Source: an uncultured Bacteroidota bacterium (GTDB lineage Bacteria > Bacteroidota > Bacteroidia > Bacteroidales > P3). Taken from it: a stretch of 32,016 nucleotides of DNA. Each line of letters begins with the position of its first letter. The first letter of the stretch is position 1. A program made the translations under genes and the position numbers. The stretch covers positions 1 through 32,016 of the forward strand of contig CACZWL010000025.1 of the NCBI GenBank assembly GCA_902784865.1, read 5' to 3'. The notes under the pieces were generated by a model. It had not been told where the DNA came from, made no database searches, and saw only the letters and a list, made by a program, of their open reading frames with translations. Below, one piece after another: positions 2,939-30,724 of the stretch.

Positions 2939-4072
2939 CTACCCGTAGTATTCCTTGTACCACTCGGCGAAATGGCGGAGGCCTTCGCGAAGGGTTATCT
3001 TGGGAGTGAAGCCGAAATCACGCTCCAATGCGGCAGCGTCTGCATAGGTTGCGGGAACGTCTCCGGGCTGCATAGGCACCAGCTGCTTATGGGCCTCGAA
3101 GTCGTAATCCTGTGGCAGGACTTTGGCGCGCACCAACTCTTCCTGCAAGATCCGCACAAAGTCTAACAGGTTCTCCGGCTGGCCTCCGCCGATGTTATAC
3201 ACTTTGTAGGGTGGGACTGGAAGGCCGTCGTCGCCCGTCATACGCTCGGGAGCTTTGCCCATTACCCTTACTATTCCTTCTACGATGTCGTCGACATAGG
3301 TGAAGTCGCGGCGGCAGTTGCCATAGTTGTAAATCTGGATTGTATCGTCTTTCAATAACTTGTTAGTGAAGCCGAAGTAGGCCATGTCCGGCCTGCCCGC
3401 AGGGCCGTAGACTGTGAAGAAGCGCAGGCCCGTAGTGGGAATATCGTAGAGCTTGCTGTAGCAATGCGCAAAGAGTTCGTTGCTCTTCTTGGTGGCGGCA
3501 TAGAGGCTTATCGGGTGGTCGACATTATCGTCGGTGCTAAAAGGGACTTTCTTGTTGCCGCCATAGACACTGGAACTGGAGGCATATATTAGGTGCTGCA
3601 CGCCAGCATAGTGGGTAGTGGATGGGGGGCAGTGGGCAGACTTCTCTGCGGCATTACTGGCTGCTTGCAATGTAGCTAATTCTTTAGCGTGCCGAGAGGC
3701 TTCGAGGATATTGTAGAAGCCGATGATGTTGCTCTGGATGTAGGCATCGGGGTTCTCTATACTGTAGCGCACTCCGGCCTGGGCGGCGAGGTTGACGACG
3801 ATATCAAAACGATGCTCGGCAAAGAGTCGGTCGACAAGGGGTTTGTCGGCAAGGTCGCCCTTTATAAAGTTGAACGTTGAGGGCTGGTCGTTGAGCGCTC
3901 TTTTTTCAATCTGCTGTAGACGGTACTCCTTCAGGGAGGGGTCATAATAGGAATTCATATTGTCGAGCCCGACTATAGAGACAGGCTCCCCTTGGAAGCC
4001 CTCCTCCAAGAGTCTTAATACCAAGTTGGCGCCGATGAAACCGGCGGAGCCAGTGACAAGAATGCTTTTCAT
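2939..4072 (-). CDS. NAD-dependent UDP-glucuronate 4-epimerase-like SDR
   Basis: Extended short-chain dehydrogenase that probably converts UDP-glucuronate to UDP-galacturonate, a capsule or LPS precursor, in the cytoplasm. Starting from ATG 4072 (377 residues) the Rossmann motif TGSAGFIG lies at residues 8-15. NLAAQAGVRYSIENP (94-108), YASSSSVYGG (163-172) and YAATKKSNEL (191-200, catalytic Tyr191 and Lys195) follow, and then RFFTVYGPAGRPDMAY and FTYVDDIVEGI, all typical of the glucuronate epimerase branch. The reading frame can be opened six codons earlier with TTG, but the ATG places the glycine motif at its usual distance. Residues about 129-157 form an extra segment (see the repeat entry) absent from the usual form of the family, on an exposed stretch between two core strands. 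Specificity is inferred from motif spacing; a closely related sugar epimerase is possible. Confidence 0.85.
   Translation of the reverse strand: MKSILVTGSAGFIGANLVLRLLEEGFQGEPVSIVGLDNMNSYYDPSLKEYRLQQIEKRALNDQPSTFNFIKGDLADKPLVDRLFAEHRFDIVVNLAAQAGVRYSIENPDAYIQSNIIGFYNILEASRHAKELATLQAASNAAEKSAHCPPSTTHYAGVQHLIYASSSSVYGGNKKVPFSTDDNVDHPISLYAATKKSNELFAHCYSKLYDIPTTGLRFFTVYGPAGRPDMAYFGFTNKLLKDDTIQIYNYGNCRRDFTYVDDIVEGIVRVMGKAPERMTGDDGLPVPPYKVYNIGGGQPENLLDFVRILQEELVRAKVLPQDYDFEAHKQLVPMQPGDVPATYADAAALERDFGFTPKITLREGLRHFAEWYKEYYG
3601..3690. repeat. Repeat-like in-frame insertion in the epimerase gene
   Basis: The minus-strand reading AKELATLQAASNAAEKSA and HCPPSTTHYAGV interrupts the usual junction NILEAxRH-VxHLIYASSSSVYG. 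The DNA at 3611-3638 is G-rich (GTGGGTAGTGGATGG, then GCAGTGGGCAG). A related GAGTGGGTAGTGGGCG stretch lies in the spacer upstream of the gene at 4176-4191. The similarity suggests that repeat DNA has expanded the coding sequence without breaking the frame. Confidence 0.55.
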
Positions 4073-10954: not shown

Positions 10955-11080
10955 CCCACCCTGACACGCACCCTCCTGCCAGGTATCTGGTAGGTGTCTG
11001 GTAGGTATCTGGTAGGTGAATACTTCGACTCTTTCCCACCATTTCCCATCGATGGGAAATAATGGATACTTTTTTTTCTC
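10955..11080. other. Spacer between convergent genes with ladder repeat and palindrome
   Basis: The spacer contains ladder copy B (10975-11040) and directly after it the perfect 20-bp palindrome ATTTCCCATCGATGGGAAAT (11041-11060), followed ten bases later by a run of eight T (11070-11077). The palindrome plus T-run may end transcription of the plus-strand glycosidase, though the gap between stem and T-run is longer than in standard terminators. Confidence 0.6.
10975..11040 (+). repeat. 11-bp ladder repeat, copy B
   Basis: Six consecutive 11-base units: CCTGCCAGGTA, TCTGGTAGGTG, TCTGGTAGGTA, TCTGGTAGGTG, AATACTTCGAC, TCTTTCCCACC. The unit order resembles copies C and D. Confidence 0.85.
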
Positions 11081-16618: not shown

Positions 16619-16662
16619 TCTGGTAGGTGAATACTTCGGCTCTGGTGCGATTTGGAGCGATT
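16619..16662 (+). repeat. 11-bp ladder repeat, copy C
   Basis: Units TCTGGTAGGTG, AATACTTCGGC, TCTGGTGCGAT, TTGGAGCGATT, preceded by a partial CCCCAGGTG. The last two units also contain a GCGATTTGGA direct repeat (16647-16666). Confidence 0.8.
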
Positions 16663-16792: not shown

Positions 16793-17911
16793 ATGGTAAC
16801 CATATTAGCTATAGAATCAAGCTGCGACGACACGTCGGCAGCCGTACTGCGCGACAACGTGCTGATGAGCAACGTCATAGCCAGCCAGAAGGTCCACGAA
16901 CAATACGGCGGCGTGGTGCCCGAACTCGCCAGCCGCGCCCACCAGCAGAACATCATACCCGTGGTCGACGCCGCTATCCGCGAAGCCGGCATCGCCAAAG
17001 AAGATATCGACGCCGTAGCCTTCACCCGCGGCCCCGGACTCATGGGCTCACTCATGGTCGGCATCAGCTTTGCAAAAAGCTTCGCCCAGGCGCTGGGCAA
17101 ACCACTCATCGAGGTGAACCACCTGCAGGCGCATGTGTTGAGCCACTTCATAGCCTCACCCCCGACCCCTCTCCCGTGGGAGAGGGGGATGGACAGGCCA
17201 AACCTTTCTCACCCCTCTCCCATGGGAGAGGGGTCGGGGGTGAGGCCACCCACATTCCCATTTATGTGTTTATTGGTCTCGGGCGGGCACACGCAGATAC
17301 TGCTGCTGCGCGACCACTTCGACATGGAAGTGCTCGGGCAGACCATCGACGACGCGGCGGGCGAAGCCATCGACAAGGCAGCCAAAATCATGGACCTCGG
17401 CTACCCCGGCGGCCCCGTCATCGACCGTCTGGCCCACGAGGGCAACCCCGACGCCTACCGCTTCGCCACCCCTCAGATCGCGGGCTACGACTACTCCTTC
17501 TCCGGCATCAAGACCTCGTTCCTCTACTTCCTGAGGGACAGGCTGAAAGAAGACCCCGACTTCATCGAACACCACAAAGCCGACCTCTGCGCCTCGATAC
17601 AGAAAACCATCGTCAGCTTCCTGCTGAAGAAAGTGGAGCGCGCCGCGCTGGACCACGGGGTGACGCAGGTGGCCATCGCCGGCGGGGTAAGTGCCAACTC
17701 GCTGCTGCGCAGCGAGTTGCAGCGCATCTGCAACAAACACCATTGGCAGGCCTTCATCCCCCCCTTCAAATTCTGCACCGACAACGCCGCCATGGTCGGC
17801 ATCGCCGCCTACTACAAATACCTGCGCGGCGAGTTCGCCGACATCAGCCTGCCGCCGTACACCAGAAGCCTCACCCCCCAACCCCCTCTCCTTTCAAGAG
17901 AGGGGGTGTAG
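16793..17911 (+). CDS. tsaD: tRNA N6-adenosine threonylcarbamoyltransferase TsaD, with repeat-derived insertions
   Basis: Transfers threonylcarbamoyl to A37 of ANN-decoding tRNAs, together with TsaB and TsaE (not in this window). Core motifs are intact: LAIESSCDDTSAAV at the start, YGGVVPELASRAH, the metal-binding NHLQAH (His110, His114), LVSGGHTQ, AGGVSANSLLR and FCTDNAAMVG near the end. The protein has 372 residues, some 30 more than usual. Residues about 121-151 (SPPTPLPWERGMDRP and HPSPMGEGSGVR) are encoded by a pair of GC-rich palindromes. They lie in the loop between the metal site and the SGGHTQ strand. The last residues LTPQPPLLSREGV and the stop codon come from another copy. Both additions keep the frame and spare all motifs, so the enzyme is probably active. 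First gene of a four-gene run. Confidence 0.95.
   Translation: MVTILAIESSCDDTSAAVLRDNVLMSNVIASQKVHEQYGGVVPELASRAHQQNIIPVVDAAIREAGIAKEDIDAVAFTRGPGLMGSLMVGISFAKSFAQALGKPLIEVNHLQAHVLSHFIASPPTPLPWERGMDRPNLSHPSPMGEGSGVRPPTFPFMCLLVSGGHTQILLLRDHFDMEVLGQTIDDAAGEAIDKAAKIMDLGYPGGPVIDRLAHEGNPDAYRFATPQIAGYDYSFSGIKTSFLYFLRDRLKEDPDFIEHHKADLCASIQKTIVSFLLKKVERAALDHGVTQVAIAGGVSANSLLRSELQRICNKHHWQAFIPPFKFCTDNAAMVGIAAYYKYLRGEFADISLPPYTRSLTPQPPLLSREGV
17153..17246. repeat. GC-rich palindrome pair 1, inside tsaD
   Basis: Left arm GCCTCACCCCCGACCCCTCT with CCC and right arm GGGAGAGGGGTCGGGGGTGA with GGC are inverted copies. Each arm carries its own small hairpin (CCCTCTCCC/GGGAGAGG). The spacer between the arms is about 20 bases. 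The whole 94-bp element is translated in frame within TsaD. Confidence 0.9.
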
Positions 17912-18008
17912 ATAGACAAATTGAAGCGTAAAAAGTTCATAAAACTGCTGCTGATTGCTTTGGCAATCCACTCCCCTCTCCTGCAAGGAGAGGGGCTGGG
18001 GGTGAGGC
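17868..18008. repeat. GC-rich palindrome pair 2, enclosing the porP start codon
   Basis: Left copy 17868-17907 (begins GCCTCACCCCCCAACCCCCT) forms the tsaD C-terminus. Right copy 17969-18008 (ends GGGGCTGGGGGTGAGGC) is its inverted partner and encodes part of the PorP signal peptide. The 61-base spacer holds the TTG start of porP. The arms could pair in the mRNA. Confidence 0.85.
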
Positions 18009-18931
18009 TTTGGGCCCAGGACATCCACTTCTCCATGCTCGATCTGGACCCGCTGCTCTTCAACCCCGCCTACAGCGGCTTCTTCGACGGCGAAGGGCGC
18101 TTCGGCGTCATCTACCGCAACCAGTGGGCATCGGTGAGCACCCCCTTCCAGACCATCAGCGCCACCGCCGAATGGAGCCTCATGCAGAGTCGACGCAACC
18201 ACAACGGACTGAGCATGGGCCTCTGGGTCAGCGCCGACCGCGCGGGAACCCTCGACTACGGCTCCACCTCGGCCAGCGCCATCCTCTCCTACTACCAACG
18301 CATAGCCAACGACAACAACCTCATCTCGGTTGCCGCCGAAATCGGCGTCGGCCAGGCCGGCTTCAGCCCCGAGAACATCATCCTGCAGGACGGCATGGAA
18401 AGCTTCGTCCGCGAGAAAACACTCTACCCCACCCTCGGCACCGGACTGGCCTGGTTCCACCAACTCAGCGACGAGACCTACACCAAAATAGGCCTCTCCG
18501 CACGCAACCTGAACGAACCCAACATCTCGTACCTCGGCATGGACGACACACGCCTCAGCCGCCGCTACAACCTCTACGGCCGCGCCGAATGGCGCGGATG
18601 GCAACGCGTGAGCCTCCTCCCCGTAGTAGGCTTCCAATACCAGAAAGGCTTCTCCGAACTGGTCTACGGATGCGACGTGAAATGGTACCTCAACGAACGC
18701 CCCCGCCACTACTTGGCCCTGAGCGCCGGCCTCCTGGGACGACACGGCGACGCCGCAGCACTGAACCTCTCCGTGGAGTGGCAGGCCTGGACATTCGCCA
18801 TATCCTACGACGCCAACCTGTCGAAACTGGCCGAAGCCAGCCACACCCTCGGCGCCTTCGAGATAGGTATCATCTACAAACTCACCAAACACGACCGACG
18901 CCACTCGGCACTGCCCTGCCCGATCATATAA
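17921..18931 (+). CDS. PorP/SprF family type IX secretion outer-membrane protein
   Basis: Outer-membrane barrel of 336 residues related to PorP and SprF, which serve type IX secretion and gliding adhesin delivery. Family features: QDIHFSMLDLDPLLFNPAYS right after the signal peptide, FGVIYRNQWASVSTPFQTIS, repeated amphipathic strands and the end ASHTLGAFEIGIIYKL. Five final codons after KLTKHDRRHS are not family-like. The start is TTG at 17921, nine bases after the tsaD stop and in the same frame; no ATG is available before the signal sequence. The signal peptide KFIKLLLIALAIH is interrupted by SPLLQGEGLGVRL, encoded by a GC-rich palindrome, before the WAQ cleavage site. GAGAGGGGG of the upstream palindrome, about 15 bases before TTG, is the only purine-rich stretch available for ribosome binding. 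Confidence 0.88.
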   Translation: MKRKKFIKLLLIALAIHSPLLQGEGLGVRLWAQDIHFSMLDLDPLLFNPAYSGFFDGEGRFGVIYRNQWASVSTPFQTISATAEWSLMQSRRNHNGLSMGLWVSADRAGTLDYGSTSASAILSYYQRIANDNNLISVAAEIGVGQAGFSPENIILQDGMESFVREKTLYPTLGTGLAWFHQLSDETYTKIGLSARNLNEPNISYLGMDDTRLSRRYNLYGRAEWRGWQRVSLLPVVGFQYQKGFSELVYGCDVKWYLNERPRHYLALSAGLLGRHGDAAALNLSVEWQAWTFAISYDANLSKLAEASHTLGAFEIGIIYKLTKHDRRHSALPCPII

Positions 18932-18934
18932 ACA

Positions 18935-19074
18935 GCCTCACCCCCAGCCCCCTCTCCTTGCAAGAGAGGGGGAGACAGAAAAAGAATGAAGAACAATAAG
19001 TTCATAAAAATAATACTGCTACTGCTAGCCATCCACTCCCCCCTCCTGAAAGGAGAGGGGCTGGGGGCGAGGCT
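18935..19074. repeat. GC-rich palindrome pair 3, enclosing the PD40/OmpA start codon
   Basis: Left copy 18935-18972 (GCCTCACCCCCAGCCCCCTC and onward) lies between the genes. Right copy 19033-19074 (ends GGGCTGGGGGCGAGGCT) is in frame in the signal peptide. The spacer, including AAGTTCATAAAA and the CTGCT-rich signal sequence, is similar to that of pair 2, so the two pairs look like copies of one unit of about 140 bp. Confidence 0.85.
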
Positions 19075-20551
19075 CCATGCACAATACAAAGTAGTGCACC
19101 TGGAGAAACCGTTCAACACCCCCGGCAGCGAGACCGGCGCACTGGTAGTGGGCGACACCGTGCTGGCCTACTCCTCGATGCAGAAACCCGAAGGACGCAA
19201 CCGCCACTTCGACATGGGCAGCGGAGTGATGCAGGTCTACCAGGCACGCATAGCCAAAAGCGGCAAGATGAGCCGCCCGCGCCTCGACCGCTGGGGCATC
19301 AACTCGAAACGCGACCACACAGGCAACCTCGCCCTCGACCCACTGACGCAAGACCTATACTTCACCCGCGGCGACGTGGAGAGCCTACGCTGCGAGATAT
19401 ACTACGCCAAGAAGAAGGCACGCCGCGGATGGGAGAAGCCCGTGCGGCTGAAAGGCCCGGTCAACCTCGAAGGCACCACCTCGACCCACCCAGCCGTCGG
19501 GCGCCTGGCCGACAGCACCGTAATACTCTACTTCGTCAGCAACCGCCCCGGCGGCCTCGGCGGCACCGACATCTGGTACACCCTCGTCAAAAACGGCAAA
19601 AGCGGCGAATGCGTCAACCTCGGCCCTCAGGTCAACTCCATCGCCGACGAATACACACCCTTCTACGACCAGCGCAACGGGGTGCTCTATTTCAGCAGCG
19701 ACCGCATGGGCGGCAAAGGCGGACACGACATCTACTGCGCCGTGGGCAGCCGCAACACATGGCAAAAAGCCGAACCCGTCTGCGGATGCCTCAACAGCGA
19801 ACAGAACGACCTCTACTTCACCATCACCCAATACGACTCCACCACCTCGATGCCCGTGGCAGGCTACCTCGCCTCGAACCGCAGCGACAGCTACTTCCTC
19901 ACCGACTCCACCTGCTGCAACGACCTCTACCGCTGGGGACTCGACTCGCTGATACCGCAACAGGTAGTGCACATCGACACCGTGGAGACCATCGACACCA
20001 TCGTCCACCGCGTGCAACGCTTCATGTTCCCCCTCTTCCTCTACTTCCACAACGACGAACCCGACCCCCAAAGCCGCGAGACCGCAACCCCCACCGCCTA
20101 CCCCGACTGCCAGCGCCGCTACGCCGCCCTGCGCAGCGAATACATAGCCCGACAGCAAAGCACCGACGACTCGGCCATGATGGCACTCTTCTTCGACACC
20201 TGCGTCGTGGGCAACTACGAGCGCGTCGAACAGCTGTTCGAATACGTCGAGAGCCTCCTCGACGCGGGCCACAGCATCACCATCACCATCGCAGGCTACG
20301 CCTCGCCGGTCTACAAGAGCGACTACAACCGCAACCTCTCGCAACGGCGCATCGGCTCCTTTATTAATATGATACGCGCGTGGCACAACGGCGTCTTCCT
20401 AGACGCGCTGTCCGACGGCAAACTGCTCGTCGACCAGCGGCCCCACGGAGCCGTAGAACCGACCACCGAAAGCCGCTCGAAAGACCCTGTCTACGGCCTC
20501 CCCGCCGCCCTGGCGCGCAGAATAGAAATACTCTCTTGTGAAATCAGATAA
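18986..20551 (+). CDS. PD40 beta-propeller and OmpA-like protein, PorE-like
   Basis: Exported protein of 521 residues. The start MKNNKFIKIILLLLAIH is followed by SPLLKGEGLGARL, encoded by a palindrome arm, and the HAQ cleavage site. The middle is a WD40/PD40-type propeller, with motifs such as LYFVSNRPGGLGGTDIWYT and LYFSSDRMGGKGGHDIYCA (about 180-265). From about residue 400 an OmpA-like region follows (ITIAGYASPVYKSDYNRNLS followed by QRRIGSF), which would bind peptidoglycan. This combination directly after a PorP/SprF gene is typical of type IX secretion accessory pairs such as PorP-PorE. It lacks the TPR part of classical PorE, so the name is used only as a comparison. Cysteines are frequent (CCND, CGC). 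Confidence 0.82.
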   Translation: MKNNKFIKIILLLLAIHSPLLKGEGLGARLHAQYKVVHLEKPFNTPGSETGALVVGDTVLAYSSMQKPEGRNRHFDMGSGVMQVYQARIAKSGKMSRPRLDRWGINSKRDHTGNLALDPLTQDLYFTRGDVESLRCEIYYAKKKARRGWEKPVRLKGPVNLEGTTSTHPAVGRLADSTVILYFVSNRPGGLGGTDIWYTLVKNGKSGECVNLGPQVNSIADEYTPFYDQRNGVLYFSSDRMGGKGGHDIYCAVGSRNTWQKAEPVCGCLNSEQNDLYFTITQYDSTTSMPVAGYLASNRSDSYFLTDSTCCNDLYRWGLDSLIPQQVVHIDTVETIDTIVHRVQRFMFPLFLYFHNDEPDPQSRETATPTAYPDCQRRYAALRSEYIARQQSTDDSAMMALFFDTCVVGNYERVEQLFEYVESLLDAGHSITITIAGYASPVYKSDYNRNLSQRRIGSFINMIRAWHNGVFLDALSDGKLLVDQRPHGAVEPTTESRSKDPVYGLPAALARRIEILSCEIR

Positions 20552-20562
20552 CCCATCACACT

Positions 20563-21804
20563 ATGACACTTGACAGAACCAAACACCTACTCACCACCTA
20601 CCGCACACCCCTGCTGCTGCTAGCAGCACTGGTGCCCACCTTCTTCGCCGTGATAGACTACGCCTACAGCTGCAACAACGGCAACATGGGCACCGGCGCC
20701 TACTACTTCGTGGGCTACGAGACGGGCTTCGGCGGACGCAAACTGCTTGGCACCCTCTACGGACTCGTGCTGCCCGACCAAGTACGCTGGACCCACCTGC
20801 GACCCTTCGTCATCGGCATCAACATGCTGATGCTGCTGTCGTTCCTGCTCTTCGCCACCAAAGCCGTGCGGCGCCTAGACGACGACCGGCTGGCCGTGCC
20901 CCTGCTGGCCGTCTACCTCGCCGGCCCCTTCTCCATTCTGCAATGGGTGGGCAGCACCATGTCGCTCTACTTCACCGAGACCTACACCCTGACGCTCATC
21001 CTGCTGTGGCTGACCCTATACCTGGTATGCCCGCGGCGCTGGTGGTACTACCTGCTCTCGGCAGCCATCGCCGTCACCGCCTGCCTCATCCACCACACCT
21101 TCTGCTGCACCTTCTTCCCACTGATGGCGGCGCTGATGCTGCACGACAGCCTGCACGACGACGGCATCGACTGGCGGCGCGCCCTCCCCTACGGCGCCAT
21201 CTGCCTGGCACTGCTGGCACTGCTGGCGGCCATCTGGATGTTCAGCCACATGAACGTCGACTACGAGACGCTGCACCAGAGCGTCCTCGACCGCACCACC
21301 GAGGATGCCTACGGCCGCGGCAGCCTGATGTACGACTACTTCTACAAGTCGAACAGCGAGAACAGCCGCGTAGGCTTCATCACCTGGGAGAAACGCCTGC
21401 CGATGGAGTTCGCGCTGACCCTGCTCATGCTGCTGCCCGCACTGGCCGTGCTGGCGGCCCCCTGGCTGCTGGCCTCGCGCCACGCACTGGCATGGCGCTG
21501 GCGCTACTGGGCCGTGCTGGCGGCCGACGTGCTGCTGACCCTGCCCATGTTCATCATGGCCACCGACTACGGCCGCTGGTGGACGGCCCTGTGCTTCACC
21601 CTCTTCGCACTGCCACTGGCCGCCGCCGCCCGTGGCGACAAACCCCTGCGCGAAGCACTGCTGACGCTCTACGACTTCTTCCGCCGCCACCTGCTGCTGG
21701 CCGTGGCCCTCGTGGTCTACCTGCTGCAGCTGGCACCCAACCCCGACTTCCCATACTTCGGCATGCAGCAGGCCATGCGCCTGCGCGAACTGATGGGACT
21801 CTAG
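20563..21804 (+). CDS. Polytopic inner-membrane protein of unknown function
   Basis: 413 residues with about nine or ten hydrophobic helices, for example PLLLLAALVPTFFAVIDYAY near the N-terminus, FVIGINMLMLLSFLLFATKA, LTLILLWLTLYLVCP, and LLLAVALVVYLLQLAP near the end. The layout, with a soluble loop after the first helix (NNGNMGTGAYYFVGYETGF) and another after about residue 225, resembles GT-C glycosyltransferases or related polyprenyl-sugar enzymes, but no signature aspartate motif could be identified, so no function is assigned. It follows the PD40/OmpA gene by 11 bases and is the last gene of the tsaD run. Confidence 0.75.
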   Translation: MTLDRTKHLLTTYRTPLLLLAALVPTFFAVIDYAYSCNNGNMGTGAYYFVGYETGFGGRKLLGTLYGLVLPDQVRWTHLRPFVIGINMLMLLSFLLFATKAVRRLDDDRLAVPLLAVYLAGPFSILQWVGSTMSLYFTETYTLTLILLWLTLYLVCPRRWWYYLLSAAIAVTACLIHHTFCCTFFPLMAALMLHDSLHDDGIDWRRALPYGAICLALLALLAAIWMFSHMNVDYETLHQSVLDRTTEDAYGRGSLMYDYFYKSNSENSRVGFITWEKRLPMEFALTLLMLLPALAVLAAPWLLASRHALAWRWRYWAVLAADVLLTLPMFIMATDYGRWWTALCFTLFALPLAAAARGDKPLREALLTLYDFFRRHLLLAVALVVYLLQLAPNPDFPYFGMQQAMRLRELMGL

Positions 21805-22361: not shown

Positions 22362-22988
22362 ATGGAAGAGAAAGAACTGCAACAGATGTTCGAAGCCAAG
22401 CGCACCACCGAGGCCAACCGGCGGAGGCAGGAGGAGCTGCGACGGCTGATCGAGGCCGAGGCGCAGCCGAAGAGCCGCCGGATGTGGCCGGTGTGGGCCG
22501 GAGCGGCGGCGGCCAGCGTGGCGCTGCTGCTGGTCACGCTACCCCTCCTGATGCGCAGCGAAGCGACGGAGCCAGTGCTGGTAGCGCAAGCCGAGGTGCC
22601 CGCGATGGATGCCCCCCCCGCAACCTCCGACCTCCAACCTCCAACCTCCGACCTCCAACCTCCAACCTCTGCCGCCCCGCAGGGAGAACCTGCGAGGATG
22701 GCACGCACCCAACCGTCCGCCGCTGAAGCCCCCGTCGTAGAGGAAGAAGCGCCCGTCGAGGCAGCGACGACGCCTGCCACTATCGAGACACCCATCGAAA
22801 TACCCACCGCTGAGCCTGCACCCGCCGAGGCCCCCAAGCCCCGCATCCACCGCCGCACCAGCACCCGCATGGTCAGCGTGCAGACGGCGCGGCACAAGGA
22901 GGGCGGCGCGGCAAGCCAGCTGTTGGCCGGCATGCTGGGCGCGCAAGAGAGCGAGCCGCTTTCGCTGAAAGAATTTGAATTGTCATAA
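22362..22988 (+). CDS. Single-pass membrane protein, probable anti-sigma factor
   Basis: 208 residues. The first 40 are highly charged and helical (MEEKELQQMFEAKRTTEANR onward), then comes a membrane segment (about 43-64, PVWAGAAAASVALLLVTLPL). The rest is Pro/Ala/Glu-rich and likely disordered in the periplasm, with a 21-bp tandem repeat (22621-22669) coding TSDLQPPTSDLQPPTS. The gene follows the ECF sigma gene with a six-base gap, and this layout suggests an anti-sigma protein. No recognised zinc-binding anti-sigma motif is present. The C-terminus (ESEPLSLKEFELS) is not informative. Confidence 0.65.
   Translation: MEEKELQQMFEAKRTTEANRRRQEELRRLIEAEAQPKSRRMWPVWAGAAAASVALLLVTLPLLMRSEATEPVLVAQAEVPAMDAPPATSDLQPPTSDLQPPTSAAPQGEPARMARTQPSAAEAPVVEEEAPVEAATTPATIETPIEIPTAEPAPAEAPKPRIHRRTSTRMVSVQTARHKEGGAASQLLAGMLGAQESEPLSLKEFELS
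22621..22669. repeat. 21-bp tandem repeat within the anti-sigma-like gene
   Basis: CAACCTCCGACCTCCAACCT plus C occurs twice exactly (22621-22641 and 22642-22662) and is followed by a partial CAACCTC. It is itself made of 7-bp pieces (CAACCTC, CGACCTC). It keeps the frame. Confidence 0.9.
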
Positions 22989-30594: not shown

Positions 30595-30628
30595 TTTTTT
30601 TTTCGGAAGGGGGGCAACACGGCAGGCA

Positions 30629-30683
30629 TCTGGTAGGTGTCTGGCAGGTGAACACTTAGACTCCGTTGCGATTTGGCGCGACT
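30629..30683 (+). repeat. 11-bp ladder repeat, copy D
   Basis: Units TCTGGTAGGTG, TCTGGCAGGTG, AACACTTAGAC, TCCGTTGCGAT, TTGGCGCGACT. The fourth and fifth overlap the left arm of a 19-bp inverted repeat. Confidence 0.8.
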
Positions 30684-30724
30684 TGGAGGGTCAGGGTGCC
30701 CACACCGCGCCAAATCGCAACGGA
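30662..30724. repeat. Perfect 19-bp inverted repeat
   Basis: TCCGTTGCGATTTGGCGCG (30662-30680) and CGCGCCAAATCGCAACGGA (30706-30724) are exact reverse complements separated by 25 bases. The left arm belongs to ladder copy D. No T-run follows on either strand. Confidence 0.9.

Follow-up and report, generated by a model that had tools for sequence, protein, structure and literature searches.

Inverted doublets of repetitive extragenic palindromic sequences (REPs), termed REPINs, with spacers conserved mainly in length are already known (Bertels and Rainey 2011, PMC3116915). Palindromic elements read in frame are known in Rickettsia, as are intragenic REPs in several species, where they often form dimers or groups and also occur in repair genes (PMC2229807, PMC3733652). 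The window analyzed here is a 32,016-nucleotide stretch of contig CACZWL010000025.1 from an uncultured Bacteroidota bacterium (assembly GCA_902784865.1; this source genome is G000, other G numbers denote relatives, and L numbers denote stretches of G000). At positions 17153–19073 it holds three inverted pairs of an arm of about 40 bp, located in and around tsaD, porP, and the gene that follows. The arms probably belong to a short hairpin element, non-autonomous and REPIN-like in the way it works, with insertions, half-units, and an exchange of leader sequence as proposed below. Like the REPINs of PMC3116915, the element is an inverted doublet of hairpin arms with a spacer kept in length, is present in many copies, and has single arms that are likely remnants. 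Unlike REPINs, it is not restricted to extragenic positions, with about half of its arms lying in open reading frames (ORFs), it is not linked to a cognate REP-associated tyrosine transposase (RAYT), and it lacks GT[AG]G 5' of the stem.

The intragenic REPs with GTAG or CGTC tags, for example those of Opitutus terrae and Rickettsia conorii (Di Nocera 2013, PMC3733652), are likewise palindromic, often dimeric, and located within conserved genes. In contrast to them, the present element belongs to another sequence family, shows turnover at fixed sites (slots) between sister species, and lacks the tags; by eye, CCTC, one form of the CGTC-type tag, is present, but ACCCCC.. intervenes before the stem, which starts with C and not with AT pairs. 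Rickettsia palindromic elements (PMC2229807, PMC3733652) are also short palindromes in frame in conserved proteins; at 105–146 bp and in another host, they are set apart from this element by description, not by sequence. The REPs of TnpAREP subclass 2.4 from Cyanobacteria and Bacteroidetes (PMC6006769) likewise include Bacteroidetes REPs inserted without frame breakage, but they flank or enter tnpAREP genes, which no convincing arm does here. Among the papers listed by literature searches, judged by titles and abstract openings, none describes this repeat family or slot turnover. What appears new here is a REPIN-shaped, RAYT-unlinked family that is rich inside genes and a genus in which unrelated hairpin repeats occupy the same slots.

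A preliminary description of the window, made from its sequence, had reported three inverted pairs within 2 kb and had likened them to REPINs, which in proteobacteria are moved by a RAYT; the observation was confirmed and the interpretation was partly supported. An inverted-repeat scan of the window gave five matches with a score of at least 16, namely the three pairs (33, 22, and 18) and two other places (16 and 19), compared with none in five first-order Markov surrogates. Pair 1 (17153–17246) is an intact 94-bp REPIN-shaped unit in tsaD, composed of a plus-strand arm (17153–17191), a 16-bp spacer (17192–17207), and a minus-strand arm (17208–17246), with an inverted repeat of 35 nt that is 97% complementary. 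Pair 2 (17868–18008, 141 bp) surrounds the porP leader with arms at 17868–17909 (plus) and 17969–18008 (minus), 59 nt apart, and pair 3 (18935–19073, 139 bp) surrounds the leader of the third gene with arms at 18935–18975 or 18976 (plus) and 19034–19073 (minus), 57–58 nt apart. The spacing of 20–61 bases given earlier is close, that of pair 1 being 16 with 39-nt arms and 24 with 35-nt arms. Each arm has its own hairpin with the stem CTCTCC..GGAGAG, imperfect in the last arm, and with inverted doublets, a preferred spacing, and many copies the REP doublet architecture proposed for these pairs holds.

Five of the six arms are translated, as had been stated: two in a TsaD loop, one as a new TsaD C terminus, and one each in the next two leaders, the porP arm being counted on the basis of an uncertain TTG start; the sole untranslated arm, at 18935, is intergenic. 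The tsaD gene (16793–17911, plus strand; Pfam TsaD PF00814, E 9.4e-92, in two stretches) thus carries both a loop insert and a C-terminal extension. The pair-1 insert lies between TsaD stretches 3–125 and 156–353 aligned to a TsaD of known structure, 6n9a_D, a chain that has two residues there. The left arm of pair 2 takes the place of the tsaD stop codon and appends the 14-residue tail SLTPQPPLLSREGV, which the other 29 aligned TsaD proteins of the genus lack. The right arms of pairs 2 and 3 encode the distal part of the leader peptides of porP/sprF (17921–18931, plus strand; Pfam PorP_SprF PF11751, E 1.4e-27) and of gene 3, an ORF for a PD40-repeat protein (18986–20551, plus strand; Pfam PD40, E 7.9e-06).

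The preliminary description had proposed a search of the whole genome for inverted pairs of the motif, and such pairs were found. A covariance model built from the six window arms was used to score 150 of 1216 first-look candidates, giving 106 matches at E ≤ 10; the best 55 of these (E up to 0.0033), after merging of opposite-strand overlaps on one palindrome, comprise 49 arms. Of the 13 neighbors within 200 bp, 12 face each other (plus-minus) and one is plus-plus. There are four exact 94-bp units with a 16-bp spacer, in tsaD, cinA, mutS2, and a glycosyltransferase-like gene. Since 24 of the 49 arms lie inside ORFs, whereas ORFs cover 78% of the sampled 175 kb (simple codon-based caller), arms are depleted from genes, yet are not confined to the space outside them; the caller favors open frames, so gene-breaking copies would be tallied as intergenic. 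Eight of the non-ORF arms begin 0–7 nt after the end of an upstream ORF. The plus arm is read differently in different genes (LTPNPSP, PHPQPLS, and ASPPTPLP), indicating that what is conserved is the DNA and not a peptide. An adaptation of the arms to be free of stop codons was considered and rejected, with stops in 65 of 294 frames compared with 57.2 ± 6.3 in shuffled sequences. Four arms are found no more than about 170 nt from a contig end (L064 87–132, L073 87–131, L074 126–169, and L060 3117–3159); the repeats may therefore break the assembly and arms may be undercounted. On L059, two arm pairs of 157–158 bp (3163–3319 and 3641–3798) with nearly identical 73-bp spacers lie around an 85-aa ORF and are likely a recent copy of a whole unit.

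TsaD was compared across 30 aligned genus genomes (37 had matches). The loop holds the element in G000, G006, and G011; another inverted pair takes its place in G001 and G024, and the other 25 have a short loop, spanning 24–39 nt in the six inspected. For tsaD, one of the two genes suggested for a comparison of sites, occupied and short-loop versions are seen between species; for porP, the other, the leader is flanked by other repeat arms in relatives. Measured from one shared codon, the three tsaD elements begin after 0, 3, and 2 nt, with 8, 5, and 5 nt between their ends and the conserved codon that follows, and the element of G011 is read in a different frame from those of G000 and G006. 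The loop GATT is present in 22 of 26 sampled G011 arms, including both tsaD arms, and in none of 34 sampled G000 arms, so that G000 and G011 each carry their own element subfamily. Independent insertion into the tsaD genes of three species fits these data best and is their simplest reading.

Occupied and short-loop sites in sister species were seen for cinA and mutS2 as well as for tsaD. CinA contains the element at the same site in G000 and G011, each with its own loop sequence; host loops of a few residues are found in G008, G014, G018, G021, G022, G023, and G024, whereas G001, G006, G009, and G035 have longer loops or inserts of another kind, and G002 has a different short one. In loop B of mutS2 the unit is present in G000 and a decayed remnant in G023, and in loop A the arms of G000 and G001 flank the host strand VVPFDLTL, with VVPF or VIPF in all 14 genomes. 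On a tree of 14 genomes built from MutS2, RadA, and TsaD (1372 columns, with good support for 10 of the 11 inner branches), slot contents labeled by eye require a minimum of 6 changes each for tsaD, radA, and cinA, 9 for the porP leader, and 2 and 5 for loops A and B of mutS2, respectively; scored as element versus no element, tsaD requires at least 3 changes and cinA 2. Within one genus, the tsaD, cinA, radA, and mutS2 sites thus exist with a short loop, with the element, with a decayed copy, or with another occupant, which makes insertion, decay, and replacement open to direct study.

In the mechanism that we favor, the intact form would be about 94 bp long, with two inverted hairpin arms of about 39 bp separated by a spacer whose length is almost constant and whose sequence is loosely conserved. 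The element would move as DNA, and insertions that spare the frame, in loops, at gene ends, and in leaders, would survive selection, with single arms representing decayed or half insertions. Pair 1 would be an intact unit in the TsaD loop, and pairs 2 and 3 half-units flanking two adjacent leaders, between which local recombination probably transferred sequence before G000 and G001 diverged. This reading draws together the many copies, the inverted pairing of one polarity, the occupied and short-loop sites, the lineage-specific subfamilies, and the use of all reading frames.

Several points weigh against it. The site comparisons are between species, with one genome per species, and the arm subfamilies were sampled in G000 and G011, G006 being left out. 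An old insertion followed by losses and homogenization could mimic parallel insertion, and the offset of the cinA element is identical in G000 and G011. The mutS2 loop A arms are nearly identical in G000 and G001 and missing from G023, which groups with G001 (AU p 0.04 on the combined tree; support 100/99 on MutS2 alone); because G023 nests with G001, precise loss or local exchange is also required. Widening the distance between neighboring arms to 400 bp brings in one minus-minus and one minus-plus pair. Among the features of miniature inverted-repeat transposable elements, the inverted repeats are present, and no consistent target-site duplication was seen by eye in the flanks of the four units. 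No mobilizing enzyme for the element was found either, and transposition is therefore inferred.

Mobilization of canonical REPINs by a resident RAYT, the version suggested by the preliminary description, would account for the REPIN-like geometry and fixed spacing, but it is an unlikely explanation. A RAYT model search gave no hit above cut-off in the four element-rich genomes of the genus (G000, G001, G006, which is 79% complete, and G011), and no canonical RAYT adjoins the arms. The search for Y1/RAYT genes in G000 did yield two IS200-like Y1 genes and two larger HuH/Y1 proteins. The IS200-like genes carry YIANQEEHH and YIASQEEHH, motifs resembling subclass 1.2 of PMC6006769, for which the table there gives no terminal hairpins. 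The larger proteins (L178 1224–2231, 336 aa; L179 ORF 86–2326, start unclear) score 35.7 and 26.6 bits against the RAYT model cut-off of 80, are distantly RAYT-like, have similar proteins in other genus genomes, and gave no Pfam match at E 0.01. No convincing arm was detected at 75 Y1/RAYT loci with 0.5–1.5 kb flanks (best E 0.083) or at 11 further loci, where the best match (E 0.028, 20 nt) lies inside the HuH gene of L178, a weak similarity that speaks for a RAYT. GT[AG]G 3' of the stem, of the AGTRG type, is found in 8 of 40 sampled G000 arms and 13 of 27 sampled G011 arms, but 5' of the stem in none of the same 40 and 27. Across 57 genomes, 21 of which have a RAYT above cut-off, presence shows no association with arms (7 of 19 genomes with at least five arm matches compared with 14 of 38 with fewer; Fisher p 1.0), the phylum-wide arm counts used here having been scored at most 16 per genome; outside the genus a RAYT is slightly more common in arm-rich genomes (7 of 11 compared with 12 of 28, p 0.30), and inside it the values are 0 of 8 and 2 of 10. 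A HuH/Y1 enzyme acting in trans is our leading guess for what moves the element, held with somewhat less than even confidence, and the L178 and L179 proteins are candidates only. Knowing the mobilizer would show if a linked transposase is a requirement of RAYT-like systems.

The leaders of porP and gene 3 raise different alternatives. The porP leader between the arms is partly shared by several relatives (GGTTCATAAAA and similar), where it is flanked by other inverted arms, including (AAAATTG)n, (AAAAACT)n, (GTGGAAA)n, and (AAAAGTG)n. Because the arms flank host sequence, the pairs at the porP leader and at one mutS2 site are not one inserted unit. The sister species often hold unrelated inverted repeat pairs in the same slots, with arms that are often tandem heptamers. 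Selection for a regulatory RNA stem-loop at the start regions of porP and its neighbor, with arm sequence drifting freely, would agree with the position of the start region in the loop of the porP-leader pair and with the finding that this pair, despite unrelated arm sequences, outscores every one of 60 shuffles in 10 of the 11 genomes examined (the exception is G021; three genomes were not extracted). Against this, similar pairs occur in coding loops of tsaD, mutS2, radA, and cinA that have no start codon, and a second test, on the last 150 nt, places the porP leader above each of 60 surrogates in 9 of 13 genomes, the G018 stretch being cut too far upstream to include its arms, and the gene-3 leader in 6 of 13. 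G014 fails the second test, though passing the shuffle test, and G023 has no pair at either leader; since it nests with G001, its arms were removed by a clean loss, replaced by exchange, or absent from the start. We therefore regard RNA regulation as improbable. The arms might instead form at their present loci, where weak inverted repeats would give rise to slippage and template switching, with no transposition, as the tandem heptamers and the host sequence between arms would suggest. However, arms within a genome resemble one another across many loci, and (AAAATTG)n matches, overlaps counted, number 59 in G000 and 4 to 159 in nine other genomes, compared with 0–2 for reversed-pattern controls. 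Among the matches listed, these form 85 clusters with 15 neighbor pairs within 250 bp, all 15 plus-minus. An origin in place is unlikely on this evidence, and (AAAATTG)n is a second repeat family behaving like hairpin arms. Heptameric repeats of Xanthomonas and Nostoc (PMC4692102) are likewise scattered 7-nt tandem repeats, but are described as intergenic, whereas here many form inverted pairs and some lie inside genes. A possible, if rather doubtful, extension of these findings is that in this genus fixed positions in essential proteins and gene leaders act as hairpin slots, in which one repeat family is repeatedly swapped for an unrelated one, both arms together, with the host sequence between them kept. 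If true, this would be a novel process by which host DNA is framed with matching inverted arms, whatever the sequence of those arms. Finally, surface loops are tolerant of change, and the segments could be normal parts of proteins, or low-complexity loops, inherited by common descent; with the same DNA read in three frames and both senses, and also between genes, and with 27 of 30 genus TsaD proteins lacking the element rather than all relatives sharing it, this explanation is hardly credible.

Returning to the favored hairpin element, pairs 2 and 3 had been described as copies of a unit of about 140 bp that share even their spacer. They are indeed alike (74% identity across 107 nt, spacer included), but neither is a free 140-bp element, and the similar spacers are the leaders of porP and of the next gene, flanked by arms. 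Copying was local and occurred several times, most clearly in G002, G006, and G022, where alignment scores between the two leaders of one genome (74, 70, and 64, respectively) compare with 19, 43, and 44 for the best porP orthologue and 20, 48, and 39 for the best other cross pair. The corresponding within-genome scores of G000 and G001 (51 and 52) are below their orthologue (70) and cross-pair (64) scores, indicating that any copying of these leaders predates the split of the two genomes; in eight other genomes the scores are 2 to 14. A dispersed signal-peptide cassette was rejected, the single leader pattern tried occurring twice in 14 genomes, both times in G006.

Beyond the source genome, arm matches were found in 19 of 61 genomes (own, genus, and order), with 0 to 80 per genome within the genus, and across the phylum in 31 of 395 genomes at E ≤ 1e-5, a threshold at which weak matches are lost. 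A pair pattern, which favors one subtype, matched at least 118 stretches; the 80 loci listed contain 84 pairs, 34 of which passed a strict full-pair test, and full pairs in relatives measure 94–95 bp. At these listed loci the frame is open across the element plus 150 nt per side, a state that does not by itself establish a gene, for 18 of 19 pairs in Bacteroidales and 12 of 15 in Prevotella or Prevotellaceae, compared with 1 of 22 in Hymenobacter and 0 of 6 in Oscillochloris; results vary among the remaining 22 pairs (Bacteroidaceae 3 of 3, Muribaculaceae 0 of 2, for example). Spacers in Hymenobacter, Oscillochloris, and others have a genome-typical length and a partly kept sequence. In this sample most copies of the element family in gut and rumen Bacteroidales and Prevotella fall within open frames, while most of those in Hymenobacter and Oscillochloris do not, a difference that raises the question of what keeps genes free of the element in one group only.

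Other repeats are present in the window. Seven CAACCTC heptamers at 22621–22669 lie in frame in the ORF at 22362–22988 and read PPTSDLQPPTS, and GGTTGCA heptamers at 981–1011 lie in the minus-strand ORF at 750–1688 and read CNLKPAT. The motif GGTGTCTGGTAGGT, allowing up to two mismatches, has seven plus-strand matches (5521, 10982–11017, 16615, and 30625–30649), partly as an 11-nt tandem, and one two-mismatch match on the minus strand at 20596, compared with a mean of 0.17 expected by chance. A perfect 19-nt inverted repeat around GCGATTTGGCGCG, with its copies 25 nt apart, is located at 30662–30724, and a related motif is found at 16647.

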